The translations under genes and the position numbers were made by a program. Source: Hongsoonwoonella zoysiae (GTDB taxonomy: Bacteria; Pseudomonadota; Alphaproteobacteria; Rhizobiales; Stappiaceae). Taken from it: a stretch of DNA of 64,000 bases. Below the pieces are notes generated by a model. That model did not search any database. It saw only the letters and a program-made list of their open reading frames with translations, and was not told where the DNA came from. Positions within the stretch are counted from its first letter, which is position 1, and every line of letters starts with the position of its first letter. Below are positions 28,971-34,653 of this stretch, piece after piece. The stretch is taken from positions 186,001-250,000 of the forward strand of contig NZ_JABRXF010000003.1 in NCBI RefSeq assembly GCF_013266695.1. Direction: 5' to 3'.

Positions 28971-30647
28971 ATGCATAGCGCGTCGACGAAGCAATCTCTC
29001 TCCTCGTTTATCGCCCGCTTCAACGCTAAAAGACGGTCGGCAAAACCTGTGGGCTTCGCCGAAACTGCGACACCGCCACTCGTCCCGCAGGAAATCTACG
29101 TCGGAGTGGAAAAGGCCGACGGAAGCGGTGAAATCGACGAGGCTCGTACGAAGCGGCTTTTCGCCGGCCTGACCAAAAAGATCGAACGGACCCGCTTTCC
29201 CTTCGCCGACAATATCGGCCACACCAATCCGTACATTCCGGCCGGTTACACGTATCTTGCGCAATTCGTCGCCCATGATCTGACGATTAACAGCGGGCTC
29301 GACGAAGGTCTTGAGCCGGAATCTCAGCCGATAAACCTGCGAAGCCATCCGCTTCATCTGGATTGCCTTTATGGCTATGGCCCGTCTATCGAGCCCGCTT
29401 GCTACGAACTTTTCACCAGAAGGCCGCTTCCGCAACGCATCGGCTGGCCACGGACGCGTTTCCGCCTCGACGGGATGTCCGACGACAATTTCACCAGGCC
29501 CGCGGACCCGGCCCGTCATCCGCGGCGCGATATCGGCCGCCTTGTCGAACCGCGCGGCGCAAACACTGCCGGGATTGCGCTTGTCGCCGACCTGCGCAAC
29601 GACGATAACGCGGTGATCTCACAGCTTACCGCCCTTCTGCAGCTCACCCACAACACGGCGATGGAAGTTCTGGAAGCGGGACTGGACCCCGCCTCGCCGG
29701 AAGAAAGCTTCCGCAATTTTTCCAGGGTGCGCGGCGCCCTTACCCACGTTTACCGAAAAATCATCCGCCACGACCTCCTGCCGAGGCTCTTGAACGGCGA
29801 AGTGGTTGCGCACTACGAAACAAAAGACAGTCCGTTTTTCGACAAGCTCGGTGATGACGTTTTCGTCACGCCCGAATTCGCGCATGCTGCCTATCGCGCC
29901 GGGCACGCGATGGTTCGAGAATCCTATTTCTTCAACAGCGAGCCACCGGTCGAACACAACCTGATGGACGTCTTGCGGCGCAATTCGGAGCGCAATCCGC
30001 CAAAGACCCCGCACAATCGCGACTGGATCATCGCCTGGTCCTATTTTTTCGATCTCGGCATACGCGAGGCGCGCGCCTCCGGGCGGCTGGAACCGCGCTT
30101 CGAAACGCCGCTGCACGACGACACGCTCTTTCCCTCCATGGAAGACAGCGAACCCGCCGGCCTTGCCTATCGCGACCTTGTCAGGAGCGCGACAACTGGC
30201 GTGCGCAAGATAGATACTCTCGCCGAACAGATAGCCTACAGCCAGCCGGAGCTTGCCGCCGCAAGCCCCTGGATCGGCTCGCCGGCCATCCGGCAGGAAG
30301 CGATGCGCCGCTGGATCGAAGCGGACAAGACGATCGACCTTGGCGATTTGAAGGAAGAGGCGGTCAACAACCCTCCGCCGATGATCTACTTCCTCGTCGA
30401 GGCTGCAGCCGCCGAAGACGGCTTCCGTCTCGGCCCTCTCGGCTCGGTCGTCCTTGCCGAGACTTTCTACCGCGCGCTGTCGCACCGCCGCTCCGTCCCG
30501 TTCGGCGGAAGAGACCCGCAGGAAGACGCCGAGAGAATTTTCGGCACGCCCACACCGGCAAGCATGCCAGACCTTATCCGTTGGGTGGACGAGAACATGC
30601 CCTTGGAAGACAAGACATTTCTCGAGACGGATATTCCATTGATCTGA
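28971..30647 (+). CDS. Animal-type heme peroxidase
   Basis: A 558-residue member of the peroxidase-cyclooxygenase (animal heme peroxidase) superfamily. Visible motifs are AQFVAHDLT with the distal His102, DLRNDDNAVISQLTALLQLTHN (206-228) typical of the family, the distal-arginine helix SRVRGALTHVYRKIIRHDLLPRLL (251-274), and YRAGHAMV with proximal His312. No signal peptide is seen, so it is either cytosolic or exported by another route. The ATG at 28971 has GGGG at 9 bases; a TTG at 28920 would add 17 residues. It begins a two-gene operon with the 130-residue NHLP-like protein 36 bp downstream and converges on the regulator-ycaO unit. Confidence 0.88.
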   Translation: MHSASTKQSLSSFIARFNAKRRSAKPVGFAETATPPLVPQEIYVGVEKADGSGEIDEARTKRLFAGLTKKIERTRFPFADNIGHTNPYIPAGYTYLAQFVAHDLTINSGLDEGLEPESQPINLRSHPLHLDCLYGYGPSIEPACYELFTRRPLPQRIGWPRTRFRLDGMSDDNFTRPADPARHPRRDIGRLVEPRGANTAGIALVADLRNDDNAVISQLTALLQLTHNTAMEVLEAGLDPASPEESFRNFSRVRGALTHVYRKIIRHDLLPRLLNGEVVAHYETKDSPFFDKLGDDVFVTPEFAHAAYRAGHAMVRESYFFNSEPPVEHNLMDVLRRNSERNPPKTPHNRDWIIAWSYFFDLGIREARASGRLEPRFETPLHDDTLFPSMEDSEPAGLAYRDLVRSATTGVRKIDTLAEQIAYSQPELAAASPWIGSPAIRQEAMRRWIEADKTIDLGDLKEEAVNNPPPMIYFLVEAAAAEDGFRLGPLGSVVLAETFYRALSHRRSVPFGGRDPQEDAERIFGTPTPASMPDLIRWVDENMPLEDKTFLETDIPLI

Positions 30648-30683
30648 TTTCGGGCCACCCGCAACATTGAAGGAGATAATTTG

Positions 30684-31076
30684 ATGAACAAGCAGCTCGA
30701 ACGCATTCAAATATTCGACCATAAGGCCTTCGGACGCCTGATCGCCGATTACGCCACCGGCAGGAAGGCCTGGCCCGAGTCGATCGAGGAATTCAGGGCA
30801 GAGGTTGAAGGCCCCAATATCGCGAAGATTCCCGAGCACATGCGGGCGATCCAGGTGGTGCAGCCGTCGGACGAAATCTTCTTCCTGCGCCTGCCGCCGA
30901 AAACGCTCTTTTCACAGTCGTTGGAACGTTATGCGGCGAACGATGCGAACGGCAGCACCGAGCCCTATCCAGCGCCGCCGTTCTATTCCGACATGGTCTG
31001 CCGGGAAGAACGCCTGACGCACACGGACTTCTTCCTGAGCCGCGTCGCCGATTACACGATTTCCGTTTGCTCGTAA
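30684..31076 (+). CDS. NHLP-like 130-residue protein, candidate modified substrate
   Basis: A 130-residue protein with an excellent ribosome site (AAGGAG, 8 bases before ATG), suggesting high expression. The middle has a KAWPESIEEFRAEVE stretch (28-42) followed by IPEHMRAIQVVQPSDEIFFLRLPPK (49-73). This pattern, a KAW-x-F block then IPEGV-like, a VV-x-(D)-x turn and an L-x-LPP end, resembles nitrile-hydratase-type leader peptides (NHLP) of RiPP precursors. The remaining 57 residues would be the core: Ser, Thr, Tyr and Pro rich with two Cys (106 and 129) and the terminal ISVCS. It is co-transcribed with the heme peroxidase and faces a YcaO gene. The similarity was judged by eye; an alternative is a small nonmodified accessory protein. 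Confidence 0.6.
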   Translation: MNKQLERIQIFDHKAFGRLIADYATGRKAWPESIEEFRAEVEGPNIAKIPEHMRAIQVVQPSDEIFFLRLPPKTLFSQSLERYAANDANGSTEPYPAPPFYSDMVCREERLTHTDFFLSRVADYTISVCS

Positions 31077-31102
31077 GCATCGGCGTCCGTCTGAAACTCA
31101 TG

Positions 31103-31132
31103 CCCCCGGGTCATCGGTCCGGGGGTTTTTTT
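31103..31132 (+). terminator. Strong terminator of the peroxidase operon
   Basis: A 7-bp GC stem (CCCCCGG, 9-base loop, CCGGGGG) is followed directly by seven T at 31126-31132. It lies 26 bases after the small gene and separates the two convergent operons. Confidence 0.9.
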
Positions 31133-31205
31133 GAGCAGAGCCCGAGCGATATCGGACAGGGATTCGACTTTTGGCCCGCCTAGCCGGTGCCCCTTCGCCC
31201 GGACA

Positions 31206-33320
31206 TCAGCTTGTAATGGGGTTGTCTCGCGCGGGAAACGGTGGGAAATCCATTCCGGCAATACGCAATCCCTCGCGAAGACGTTCCCAACCCTCCCCGT
31301 CGTTCAACGGGAAGCATTGGCCAAGCCAACGTGCGATCTCTTCGCGTATGGGTTCCTCCGAGCCGGTCCAGTGCGATTTCAGATGCCACTCCATCATCGA
31401 AAGATGCTTTCGCGCGCTCTCCAGATCGCCCGCGTGTGCAAGGGCTGCGACATACCAGGCCTCGACCCCCGGATAGCCGGAACTGAAATGCGGAAATGCG
31501 TCGAGCACGGCTTCATAGTCGCCGCAGAGGAACATGATGCCGATATAGTAGCTCCAGTGGATCGGAGAGGTCAGCATGCCGGCATCATGAAGTTGCCTTG
31601 CCAGCACCATCGCGTCTTCCCGGCGGCCGTAGAACGCGAAGGCATGCGCAACCGACAGCACCGTCCACGGATCGTTGTTGTTCAGGTCGAGCGCAAAGCG
31701 ATGCTGCTCTTCGGCCGCTTCATAGTTCCCCTGAAGCGCAAGCGTCCAGCCCGCGCAGAGATACGCCCGTGAATCAAACGGATCCAGGCTGATCGCCGTC
31801 CGGGCCAGTTCCGTCGCACGGGCGATATTCTGCGCGGTGCGCGGCTGCCCGGGAAAGACGATGTGGCGGGAATTCAGTATCTGCGCCAGCGTGCAATAGG
31901 CCGGTCCGAACTGGGGATCCTCCTGGATGATCGCCTCGAGGATCGACTGAGCGCGATGGGAATCTTCAAGTTTCCATGTGTAGTGCAGCTGCTGGCCCTT
32001 GAGCAGGCGGTCGTAGGACATCAATGATGCGACCGGCACCCTGGAAAGCTGGGCCAGACGCTCAGCCGATATATTGACGTTCATTGCCATGGCGATGTTG
32101 CTGACGAGGCGGCCCTGCAACTCGAAGAATTGCGCCGCGTCCAGCTTGAAATCCTGCCCCCAGATGTAGGCGTTGGAACGTGAATTGCGCACGGCGACGG
32201 ATATCGACGTCCGGTCCCGAGAACTGACGCTGCTTATGGACACTTTGTAGACGGGCGTTCCCGAACGCACGAGTTCCTCCGTCTCCGCCTCCACGACCGA
32301 CCATTCGCGAAACCGGACCAGACGGGATATTAGATCGTGCCGAAAGACCTGTGCCGCGCGGATATTACGTGCAGGCTCGTCAAGCTGGAGTACATGCTCG
32401 ACAATTATGACCGGCCACACTTCGCCCGGCCAGGGAGGTGTCCTTCGCGATCCGCCGGGCTGGGCAACAACAGGTTTTTCCCTTTCGGCAAAGCCGGCGC
32501 TCGTACTGACCGCGGCTTCCGCCGCTTGCGGGTATCTTTCCAGTTTGATGCTTACGACAAGCGCCTGCGTCCGTTCGGAAGGTTGTGTGTCGAACTCCTC
32601 ATCCAGAACACGCCAAAGGTCCTCATATGCCCTTACAGCCCCGGCAAAATCTCCCGCTGCTGCGCGCGCGTTCATCAAAGCCCTGCAGGCAGGCTCGTGC
32701 GTGGGGTCAAGATTGAGAAGAGCTATCGCCGCTTCCTGGTTGGGGCTCTGGTCGAGGGACGCTTTCAATCGATCTTCAAGCGACGTCCGCAACCTGTCCT
32801 GCAAGTGCTGGCGCCTGACCCTCAGCCAGCCGATGAAGCTTTCCTCGCTCAGCCCCTCGAGACCCTCGAGCAAACGATCCGACAAGCGTTTTTCGTTCAG
32901 AAGCGGCTTCGGGATTCCACCCCCTTCGGCAAGTTCGTCGAGCAAGGCGTCGACATCCGTGACGACCCGCGTCTTGTCGAGGTATATGGTGAGCTTGTCG
33001 GGATGAAGGCCTTCGAATCCCGCCGCCTCCAGCTCTCTTCTCAGGATCAGAAGCGTCTGGCGCAGCGAAGAGCGCGCCCTTTCCTCCGAACTTTCTCCCC
33101 ACAACAAGCCCGCCGCCATTTCGCGAGTGAGGCGTCCGTCCGCCGTCAGGCACATATAGGCAAGCAGCGCCTCTGCCTTGCGGGAGCGAAATCTCAACGG
33201 GCGTCCGGCAACGGCGAAGCCCGGCAAACCGAACAGCGTGGCGCGAAGCTCCTCGCCTCCGCCTTGATGTTCCGCGCCGATGCGTTCGTCCCTTGGCACC
33301 TTGTTCTCCGGTAATTCCAT
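31206..33320 (-). CDS. SARP/BTAD-type transcription regulator with TPR domain
   Basis: A 704-residue regulator. Residues about 25-100 form the SARP winged helix (RKAEALLAYMCL through SSLRQTLLILRREL), about 105-260 the BTAD helical domain, about 290-410 a TolB-N-like segment also seen in rhizobial cyclase-type regulators (NSRSNAYIWGQDF), and about 420-700 TPR repeats (AYCTLAQILNSRH, AYLCAGWTLALQGNYEAAEEQH and following). The start at 33320 lies one base after the ycaO stop (TGA-A-ATG), so it is translationally coupled to ycaO. A longer start at 33356 overlaps ycaO. It likely controls this locus, sensing a ligand or peptide through the TPRs; that is inference. Confidence 0.85.
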   Translation of the reverse strand: MELPENKVPRDERIGAEHQGGGEELRATLFGLPGFAVAGRPLRFRSRKAEALLAYMCLTADGRLTREMAAGLLWGESSEERARSSLRQTLLILRRELEAAGFEGLHPDKLTIYLDKTRVVTDVDALLDELAEGGGIPKPLLNEKRLSDRLLEGLEGLSEESFIGWLRVRRQHLQDRLRTSLEDRLKASLDQSPNQEAAIALLNLDPTHEPACRALMNARAAAGDFAGAVRAYEDLWRVLDEEFDTQPSERTQALVVSIKLERYPQAAEAAVSTSAGFAEREKPVVAQPGGSRRTPPWPGEVWPVIIVEHVLQLDEPARNIRAAQVFRHDLISRLVRFREWSVVEAETEELVRSGTPVYKVSISSVSSRDRTSISVAVRNSRSNAYIWGQDFKLDAAQFFELQGRLVSNIAMAMNVNISAERLAQLSRVPVASLMSYDRLLKGQQLHYTWKLEDSHRAQSILEAIIQEDPQFGPAYCTLAQILNSRHIVFPGQPRTAQNIARATELARTAISLDPFDSRAYLCAGWTLALQGNYEAAEEQHRFALDLNNNDPWTVLSVAHAFAFYGRREDAMVLARQLHDAGMLTSPIHWSYYIGIMFLCGDYEAVLDAFPHFSSGYPGVEAWYVAALAHAGDLESARKHLSMMEWHLKSHWTGSEEPIREEIARWLGQCFPLNDGEGWERLREGLRIAGMDFPPFPARDNPITS

Positions 33321-33321
33321 T

Positions 33322-34653
33322 TCAGTAGAGCTCAACCCGGTCCCCGGGGATTTCACCGGTCACGGCCAGCGCTCGTTGGTGGGACAGGCGCTTCGACACG
33401 AGCTCTGATGGGTCCGGTTGCAGTCCGGTAACGATCGCCCGCGCGACCGGGATATCGAAATCGGGCCGGGTCAAGTCTATAATGCGAACCGCGTGCCCGC
33501 GACTGCCAAGGCGCGTCGCAAGGAGATTGAGGCGATTGTCCTGGTCATCGTCGACCGGGGACAGGGTCTCGTGAGGAGCAATGCAAACGGGCTGAAGGTT
33601 CAGCCAGTCGCCTCTCACCATTCCGGCACGGGCCACATGCTTGCGATCCGTCTCGTTCAGCCCTTCGTCCCCGCGCTCGGCGCGCTTCGCCGCGACAACC
33701 CTATCGGCAAGTTCGATCTGCAGAAGTTCCTCGATGGCGCCGCGCAACGCCTCCTCCATCGATCCACCCGCCGCAAAACCGTATGCCACTCCCGCCCCGT
33801 CCCTGTCCGAGGAAAGAGCGGCCGCCACCGGAATGCCGACATCATTCGTCAGGTTCAGGAACCACGAACGCCTCTCGGTACGGCCTTGGCGATAATGCTT
33901 GAGCAATTCTACAACGCCACTTGAAGCCAGCGTTTCCAGATCGACGGCGCCCGGGCGTCGGCCGCCCCTCCACCAAAGGGCGACGGCATCCCGTTCAGCC
34001 CATTCGAGGATGGCGCGATACGCCGCCTCCTCACGGGTTCGGCCGGCGGCGACACCGATCCCCATCAGATACGGCAACCCGTTGGGCCTGCGCCCCCCGG
34101 ACCTGCGCCAACACAGGTCTGCGGGAACCGCATCCCTCGACCGGTTCGGCAATCGCACCGCTTCCACCCAATCCGTGGGGTTGACCGAATTTCCGCCGTG
34201 AAGCTCCTGAAATTCGCAATCGTCGATACTTCCCGGGCTCACGCTGTCAGGTTCGACGATGCGCACGCGCGCATCCTCCGGTATTTCGAACTGGCTCGCA
34301 AACTCGCAAGCTTCCGCCACACAGGCGCGAAAAGCCGCAAGCCGGCTTGGACCCACCCCGGAAACGGAAGTGCCGGCGTTCACCTTGGCGCCATAGGCAG
34401 CGACGGATACCGAAGCGCCGAAACACGCCAGACCCGGCGCATCGGGCACCGGCAGTTCGAACAGGCGGTCAAGGCCCGCCGCAAATCGCAAAAGGTTTGC
34501 GAGGTCGCGCCGGTCCGCCTCATCAAGTTCCGGCGTCACACCGAGCCATTTCAGAAATTCCGGCCCTAGGCCGCCACTCTCCGGATCATTCGCGCCGGTA
34601 ACGAGATCGGCCGCAGAAACAAGTGTTTGCCTTGTTTCCGATTGCATGGTCAT
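33322..34653 (-). CDS. Standalone YcaO-domain protein (TOMM-type)
   Basis: YcaO proteins use ATP to activate peptide amides, making azolines, thioamides or amidines in RiPPs, or act on proteins such as ribosomal S12. The 443-residue protein has the three nucleotide/magnesium blocks: EACEFAS (Glu114, Glu117), AILEWAERDA (Glu217, Glu220, Arg221) and EALRGAIEELLQ (Glu308/309, Gln312). The C-terminal block IIDLTRPDFDIPVARAIVTGL matches TOMM cyclodehydratases rather than E. coli YcaO. The Arg after the first Glu pair is Phe, and no proline-rich PxPxP tail is present. The ATG at 34653 follows AAGGGG. No E1-like, dehydrogenase or TfuA partner is visible. It is co-transcribed with the SARP regulator. 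Confidence 0.85.
   Translation of the reverse strand: MTMQSETRQTLVSAADLVTGANDPESGGLGPEFLKWLGVTPELDEADRRDLANLLRFAAGLDRLFELPVPDAPGLACFGASVSVAAYGAKVNAGTSVSGVGPSRLAAFRACVAEACEFASQFEIPEDARVRIVEPDSVSPGSIDDCEFQELHGGNSVNPTDWVEAVRLPNRSRDAVPADLCWRRSGGRRPNGLPYLMGIGVAAGRTREEAAYRAILEWAERDAVALWWRGGRRPGAVDLETLASSGVVELLKHYRQGRTERRSWFLNLTNDVGIPVAAALSSDRDGAGVAYGFAAGGSMEEALRGAIEELLQIELADRVVAAKRAERGDEGLNETDRKHVARAGMVRGDWLNLQPVCIAPHETLSPVDDDQDNRLNLLATRLGSRGHAVRIIDLTRPDFDIPVARAIVTGLQPDPSELVSKRLSHQRALAVTGEIPGDRVELY

Follow-up and report, generated by a model that had tools for sequence, protein, structure and literature searches.

A recurring four-gene module of a standalone YcaO protein, a cyclooxygenase-like heme enzyme, a regulator and a small protein with a near-constant cysteine tail: a predicted modification pathway in Hongsoonwoonella zoysiae and other bacteria

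Introduction

YcaO enzymes form azolines, amidines and thioamides. In the bottromycin pathway, as described in an excerpt of PMC8442711, two YcaOs act without a partner, one of them forming a thiazoline from Cys; for actinobacteria, the same excerpt describes most standalone YcaOs as having no known substrate. The locus considered here lies in a 64,000-nucleotide stretch of Hongsoonwoonella zoysiae (NCBI RefSeq assembly GCF_013266695.1, contig NZ_JABRXF010000003.1, positions 186,001 to 250,000 of the forward strand), which is called the window below and belongs to a genome of 4.36 Mb that is 99.99% complete (G000). It encodes a standalone YcaO, a SARP-like regulator, a heme enzyme of the peroxidase-cyclooxygenase superfamily (POX) and a precursor-like small protein (SML). 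The four genes were found to recur as a unit, and on the strength of sequence comparisons we predict, with moderate confidence, that they serve as a dedicated pathway which modifies SML post-translationally at its C-terminal tail.

The module resembles several described systems and differs from each of them. Like the bottromycin-type standalone YcaOs (PMC8442711, excerpt), its YcaO is partnerless and a Cys-derived thiazoline is possible, but the module has a folded candidate substrate of about 130 aa with a constant Cys tail, a heme-enzyme companion and alphaproteobacterial hosts. As with the NHLP precursors (TIGR03793), a long leader-like body is encoded with a YcaO and a weak local profile resemblance was detected; unlike them, SML has neither a TIGR03793 match nor a GG site, its tail is constant instead of forming a variable core, and an E1-like partner is absent. 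Split and fused borosins, as excerpted from PMC8429565, have the modifying enzyme and the core-bearing precursor as two genes or as one polypeptide, similarly to POX and SML. However, the enzyme of the module is a heme enzyme and not a methyltransferase, and a YcaO is present in addition. In the thioamidation of McrA (TIGR03266) a YcaO likewise acts on a protein and not on a released peptide, whereas no TfuA was found in the window genome, and McrA, which was not searched for, is not expected in the organism. In mycofactocin and pyrroloquinoline quinone (PQQ) biosynthesis a ribosomal precursor carries a nearly constant C-terminal core, as SML does, and the enzymes differ: no radical SAM enzyme is among the four module genes. 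POX shares its fold, the distal Gln/His and the proximal His with DdPoxA, the peroxidase of Cyanobacterium TDX16, cyclooxygenase (COX) and myeloperoxidase (MPO). In contrast to these enzymes, most POXs of the module no longer have the distal Arg, nor the Asp next to the distal His, and they are fused or coupled to SML.

No description of this module was found in literature searches, and by term count the word "peroxidase" has zero occurrences in the YcaO surveys PMC8120280 and PMC4603692. The component families are each known; as far as we found, neither the way they are combined nor the fused form nor the Cys tail has been described before.

Results

Gene arrangement and recurrence of the module

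The module consists of two convergent gene pairs:

28971..30647, plus strand: POX, 558 aa, heme enzyme of the peroxidase-cyclooxygenase superfamily; a modest match to PF03098, 31.5 bits (cut-off 25)
30684..31076, plus strand: SML, 130 aa, ATG start; precursor-like small protein and substrate candidate
31102..31126, plus strand: terminator-like stem-loop between the convergent gene pairs, 11 pairs followed by a T-run
31206..33320, minus strand: SARP-like regulator with BTAD and TPR, 704 aa from the ATG at 33320
33322..34653, minus strand: standalone YcaO, 443 aa; PF02624, 146.8 bits, E 1.3e-42

The initial annotation had placed the same four genes, and their positions were confirmed when the sequence was re-read. 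SML starts 36 bp after the POX stop, behind an AAGGAG ribosome site at 30670-30675, the stem with its T-run is present, and a single base separates the regulator from the YcaO. The regulator frame in the list of open reading frames (ORFs) reaches a GTG at 33356; the start was set at the ATG at 33320 because it fits the one-base gap. The terminator scan gave 8 such sites against a mean of 7.6 in shuffles, the stem at 31102-31126 being the richest in G-C pairs.

The search at the level of the order covered 297 genomes, that of the window included. SML was detected in 19 of them, one of which (L020) has internal stops and is probably spurious, and YcaO, at a threshold of 1e-20, in 24 genomes at 27 places (window included). 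Counted from the YcaO, a tail-bearing SML was present in 22 of the 27 loci, POX as well in 19 and the SARP in 24. Because of this recurrence a chance neighbourhood was ruled out. The scan of GTDB contigs with the SML alignment resulted in 58 loci, which were picked by the tail pattern and are therefore uninformative on tail conservation. Their hosts are Bradyrhizobium, Stappia, Hyphomicrobium, Acetobacteraceae-type metagenome-assembled genomes (MAGs), Roseomonas relatives, Thalassobaculum, Desertibaculum and one gammaproteobacterial MAG.

Pooling of all searches, with ten duplicates dropped, gave 75 distinct loci, the window not among them. The identical arrangement, POX and SML converging on SARP and YcaO, was found in 53 of the 75, twice with POX and SML fused. 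The remainder comprised SML, SARP and YcaO without POX (7 loci), loci cut by a contig end (5), loci with the YcaO elsewhere in the locus (4, of which L052 is without SARP), POX, SML and SARP with the YcaO outside the locus (3), POX and SML alone (2) and SML and YcaO alone (1). The four genes clearly co-occur elsewhere and belong together, and the YcaO, the precursor-like protein, the oxidase and the regulator that the initial annotation had grouped form one recurring unit.

The pairwise distances of the four proteins were correlated over 46 loci (r 0.92-0.98, species divergence being included in these values). Two further copies of the module were found on plasmids of Paroceanicella profunda (L155:5923-11315) and Mesorhizobium huakuii (L158:4701-10373). 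The flanking genes are common mainly to close relatives, and the module is therefore regarded as self-contained. In the two plasmid records the small protein and the regulator carry only the annotation "hypothetical". At L053:5929-7592 the peroxidase is split over two reading frames, by sequencing error or decay, with SML intact downstream.

The C-terminal tail of SML

31041..31073, plus strand: C-terminal tail of SML, RVADYTISVCS, with Cys129 as the penultimate residue

The tail follows the pattern R-x2-[DE]-Y-x4-C-x-COOH. R, Y and C were present in 30 of 30 SMLs and D in 29, in a set where L066 and L067 had first been recognised by the tail pattern and four others (L079-L082) had been retrieved with a profile of the whole family, tail included. 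These R, Y and C are all three invariant residues of SML, and they are also kept in two SMLs known only via an adjoining plasmid POX. No Pfam or NCBIfam match was obtained for SML at E<=1; the few scattered matches of 24 family members reached at best an E of 0.024. The predicted structure is confident and mostly helical (pLDDT 91.6). The dN/dS of SML, determined by the pairwise Nei-Gojobori method, was 0.03-0.28 over nine pairs, of which six compare POX-less loci with each other, some dS values being high. Judged from these codon comparisons, SML is under purifying selection in the POX-less loci.

The heme pocket of POX, its fusions and its absence

29262..29279, plus strand: distal heme motif of POX, Q98-x3-H102-D103, with Ala101 in place of the Asp of the standalone relatives examined
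29895..29906, plus strand: proximal heme motif of POX, R309-x2-H312, with R and H in 71/71 ungapped rows

The family profile, the fold and both heme-binding His place POX in the peroxidase-cyclooxygenase superfamily. In the alignment, which includes two fused proteins, fragments and a second POX from L082, and from which gapped rows were set aside, Q, H and D of the distal motif were conserved in 69/69 ungapped rows. The Asp at position 101 was found in 1 of 69 ungapped rows compared with 4 of 4 standalone relatives, which had been picked from 28 plasmid records and judged standalone by their neighbourhood. At the distal position, which we take to correspond to the Arg of true peroxidases, the window POX has Leu. 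R or K occupies this position in four of the 68 POX rows without a gap, compared with all four standalone relatives. A POX relative with the distal Arg is encoded on Sinorhizobium meliloti pSymA (L156:4398-6266), with no tail-bearing partner among the surrounding ORFs.

POX and SML form one reading frame in L126 (L126:6381-8372, Rhodobacteraceae DSL-40, 663 aa) and in L129 (L129:5083-6909, 608 aa). In both fusions the SML tail is intact and SARP-YcaO adjoins. The predicted model of the fused protein has a disordered linker at 505-538 and holds no interface information. The initial annotation had missed the fused forms, the invariant Cys-bearing tail at the C-terminus and the fact that the distal Arg is lost.

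No match to the window POX at 1e-5 was obtained in three genomes of the Stappia group (G116, G146, G173) or in the genomes of L123 and L131, the window POX being the sole query, with which a very divergent POX could be missed. In the genome of L119, POX is present only as a C-terminal remnant with a stop, the position of which would match the stretch directly ahead of SML, provided that G912:C5 is the L119 contig. All six genomes retain SML, SARP and YcaO. The retention of these three genes under purifying selection indicates that SML has a YcaO-linked role independent of POX.

The YcaO and its partners

The window YcaO is the sole PF02624 match of its genome. It scored 111.7 bits with TIGR03604 and 60.1 bits with TIGR03266, below the cut-offs of 219 and 365, respectively, and in a phmmer search it matched LynD and TruD. 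The residues E114, E117, E217, E220, R221, E309, Q312 and E314 were each conserved in at least 93% of 72 rows, a few off-family or partial ones included; we take these positions to have a role with ATP. The C-terminus tends towards a short hydrophobic stretch.

The absence of an E1-like partner, which had been noted for the window, held across the whole genome, where TIGR03882 gave no match. Of 13 module genomes, one had a match to this model, away from the contig of the module, the ocin-ThiF model not having been searched. TfuA (PF07812), the partner in YcaO-TfuA thioamidation, was likewise absent from the window genome; two of the 13 module genomes encode it, again on a contig other than that of the module. 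Of the features of a TOMM azol(in)e cluster, the locus has the YcaO with its conserved Glu/Arg/Gln positions and lacks the E1-like partner and the C-terminal PxPxP.

Comparison of SML with NHLP precursors

30837..30905, plus strand: stretch of SML (residues 52-74) with a weak local hhalign similarity to the NHLP leader

An NHLP-like middle had been proposed for SML. Of this proposal a weak local profile resemblance was retained; family membership was not, since neither a TIGR03793 match nor a GG motif was found. TIGR03793 at E<=1 gave no match for SML or for any of 24 family members, and none of the matches listed from 199 genomes, that of the window included, lay at the module locus. These results, together with the constant tail, do not support SML as a member of the NHLP family.

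The NHLP profile used for the local comparison was built from 11 NHLPs, seven above the TIGR03793 cut-off (six of G081, one of G137) and four, from G081, just below. SML residues 52-74 aligned by hhalign with an NHLP stretch ending in VLP with a score of 23.2 (P 0.0028, probability 11%, 23 columns), a weak alignment. In the controls, 0/200 column shuffles (maximum 17.2) and 0/38 unrelated windows (maximum 15.6) reached this score, but the reversed SML profile scored 19.9. The resemblance spans 23-30 columns, is weak although above the controls, and is a lead rather than a sign of membership.

The window genome has five weak TIGR03793 matches; the three listed are below the cut-off and lie on contig C1, a contig other than that of the module, in frames of 224-268 aa (e.g. 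637214-637384). At G137:C155:17917-18126 (L069), an NHLP precursor of 88.7 bits adjoins a YcaO protein of 786 aa that begins with a winged helix; this pair is a different, more usual YcaO system of the same order.

The regulator and the neighbouring genes

The BTAD domain of the regulator matched PF03704 with 46.1 bits (cut-off 22.1, E 8e-12), and TPR families were also matched. The N-terminal winged helix, PF00486, gave a weak match only (E 0.063, 13.8 bits vs the cut-off of 26.2). SARP adjoins SML in 70 of the 75 loci.

Neighbours were counted within 4 kb from simple ORF calls of at least 100 aa made without a gene finder. Those found in at least three lineage groups are a 184-aa protein and larger genes that fall into four small clusters. 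Two of these clusters belong to common families (enoyl-CoA hydratase, aldehyde dehydrogenase), and the other two were not identified. The 184-aa protein lies beside the module in 26 loci (e.g. L099:11989-12543) and has no Pfam family at 0.01. Its gene follows YcaO in Bradyrhizobium, precedes POX in the Acetobacteraceae-type MAGs and lies downstream in Falsiroseomonas. Of 22 genomes searched, two were found to encode it, both from the Bradyrhizobium group and with the module; it was not found in three SML-less Bradyrhizobium-group genomes or in the Stappia-family genomes searched. Among 1599 ORFs of 25-110 aa at 34 representative loci, no second short gene was common to at least three lineages.

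Discussion

If the module modifies the tail of SML, the SARP-like regulator would switch it on and the YcaO would bind the folded SML body. With ATP, the YcaO would then activate a backbone amide that precedes Cys129 or lies close to it, and a thiazoline or related product would result. POX would subsequently oxidise the same tail, for example from azoline to azole or at the invariant Tyr, acting in trans or, when fused, in cis. The SML-YcaO step is regarded as the core and the peroxidase as a tailoring step, because the POX-less loci keep SML, the regulator and the YcaO. More tentatively, the partnerless YcaO and the cyclooxygenase-like heme enzyme without the peroxidase Arg may convert the constant Asp-Tyr...Cys tail, in split or fused form, into a redox cofactor or a reactive group, which would make the module a new class of YcaO-dependent system.

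Several observations weigh against a modification pathway of this kind. The near-constant tail is unlike the variable cores of most ribosomally synthesized and post-translationally modified peptides (RiPPs), and in the SML of L081 the Cys is third from the end. A helix (113-126) of the SML model takes up the conserved R, D and Y, so that the last four residues alone are free, which is less like a typical flexible core. The C-terminal PxPxP of azoline-forming cyclodehydratases was found in 0 of 72 YcaO rows, a few of them off-family, and neither a protease nor a transporter was identified among the recurring neighbours. In G917, G921 and G922, POX and SML are present with no YcaO match at 1e-5; these are MAGs of unstated completeness, and in two of them the locus runs into a contig end. 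The constancy of the tail points to one conserved product or function, e.g. a redox or binding group, rather than to a diversified antibiotic, and the lack of a recurring transporter, protease or second short gene fits an intracellular product or a modification retained on the protein.

An alternative that we consider unlikely, yet the strongest of those weighed, is that SML is a non-catalytic subunit of POX, its tail reaching the heme pocket and being matured in place by the YcaO, in the way that methyl-coenzyme M reductase is matured by a YcaO, so that the outcome is an enzyme and there is no peptide product. The adjacency of POX and SML on the same strand, twice as one polypeptide, is in agreement with such a role, as are the near constancy of the tail and the recurring neighbours, among which no protease or transporter was identified. 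On the other hand, SML, the regulator and the YcaO are kept under purifying selection in genomes without a match to the window POX, and the predicted fused model has a disordered linker and gave no information on an interface.

It is improbable that SML serves as the YcaO partner in place of an E1-like or RRE protein, presenting another peptide or protein encoded elsewhere. Such a role would fit the window genome, where no E1-like protein or TfuA was detectable, and the SML model, which is predicted to be well folded and weakly resembles NHLP leaders. Nevertheless, no second short ORF common to at least three lineages was found beside the module at the 34 loci, and a partner role would leave unexplained both the invariant C-terminal Cys and why SML is attached to the C-terminus of POX in the fused forms. 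Least probable is an oxidative-stress or lipid-oxidation operon with POX acting on small molecules and unrelated roles for YcaO and SML: the superfamily of POX and its distal pocket without the peroxidase Arg would suit it, but YcaO and SML are retained together without POX and the four genes stay together in differing surroundings.

Should the modification of the SML tail prove true, the pairing with a heme enzyme of the cyclooxygenase superfamily, including its fusion to the candidate substrate, would add a chemistry absent from the RiPP literature searched. With its four genes the module is small; it recurs in Stappia and Bradyrhizobium isolates and is directly testable. Conservation indicates in it a candidate substrate of a standalone YcaO, and even a candidate residue.

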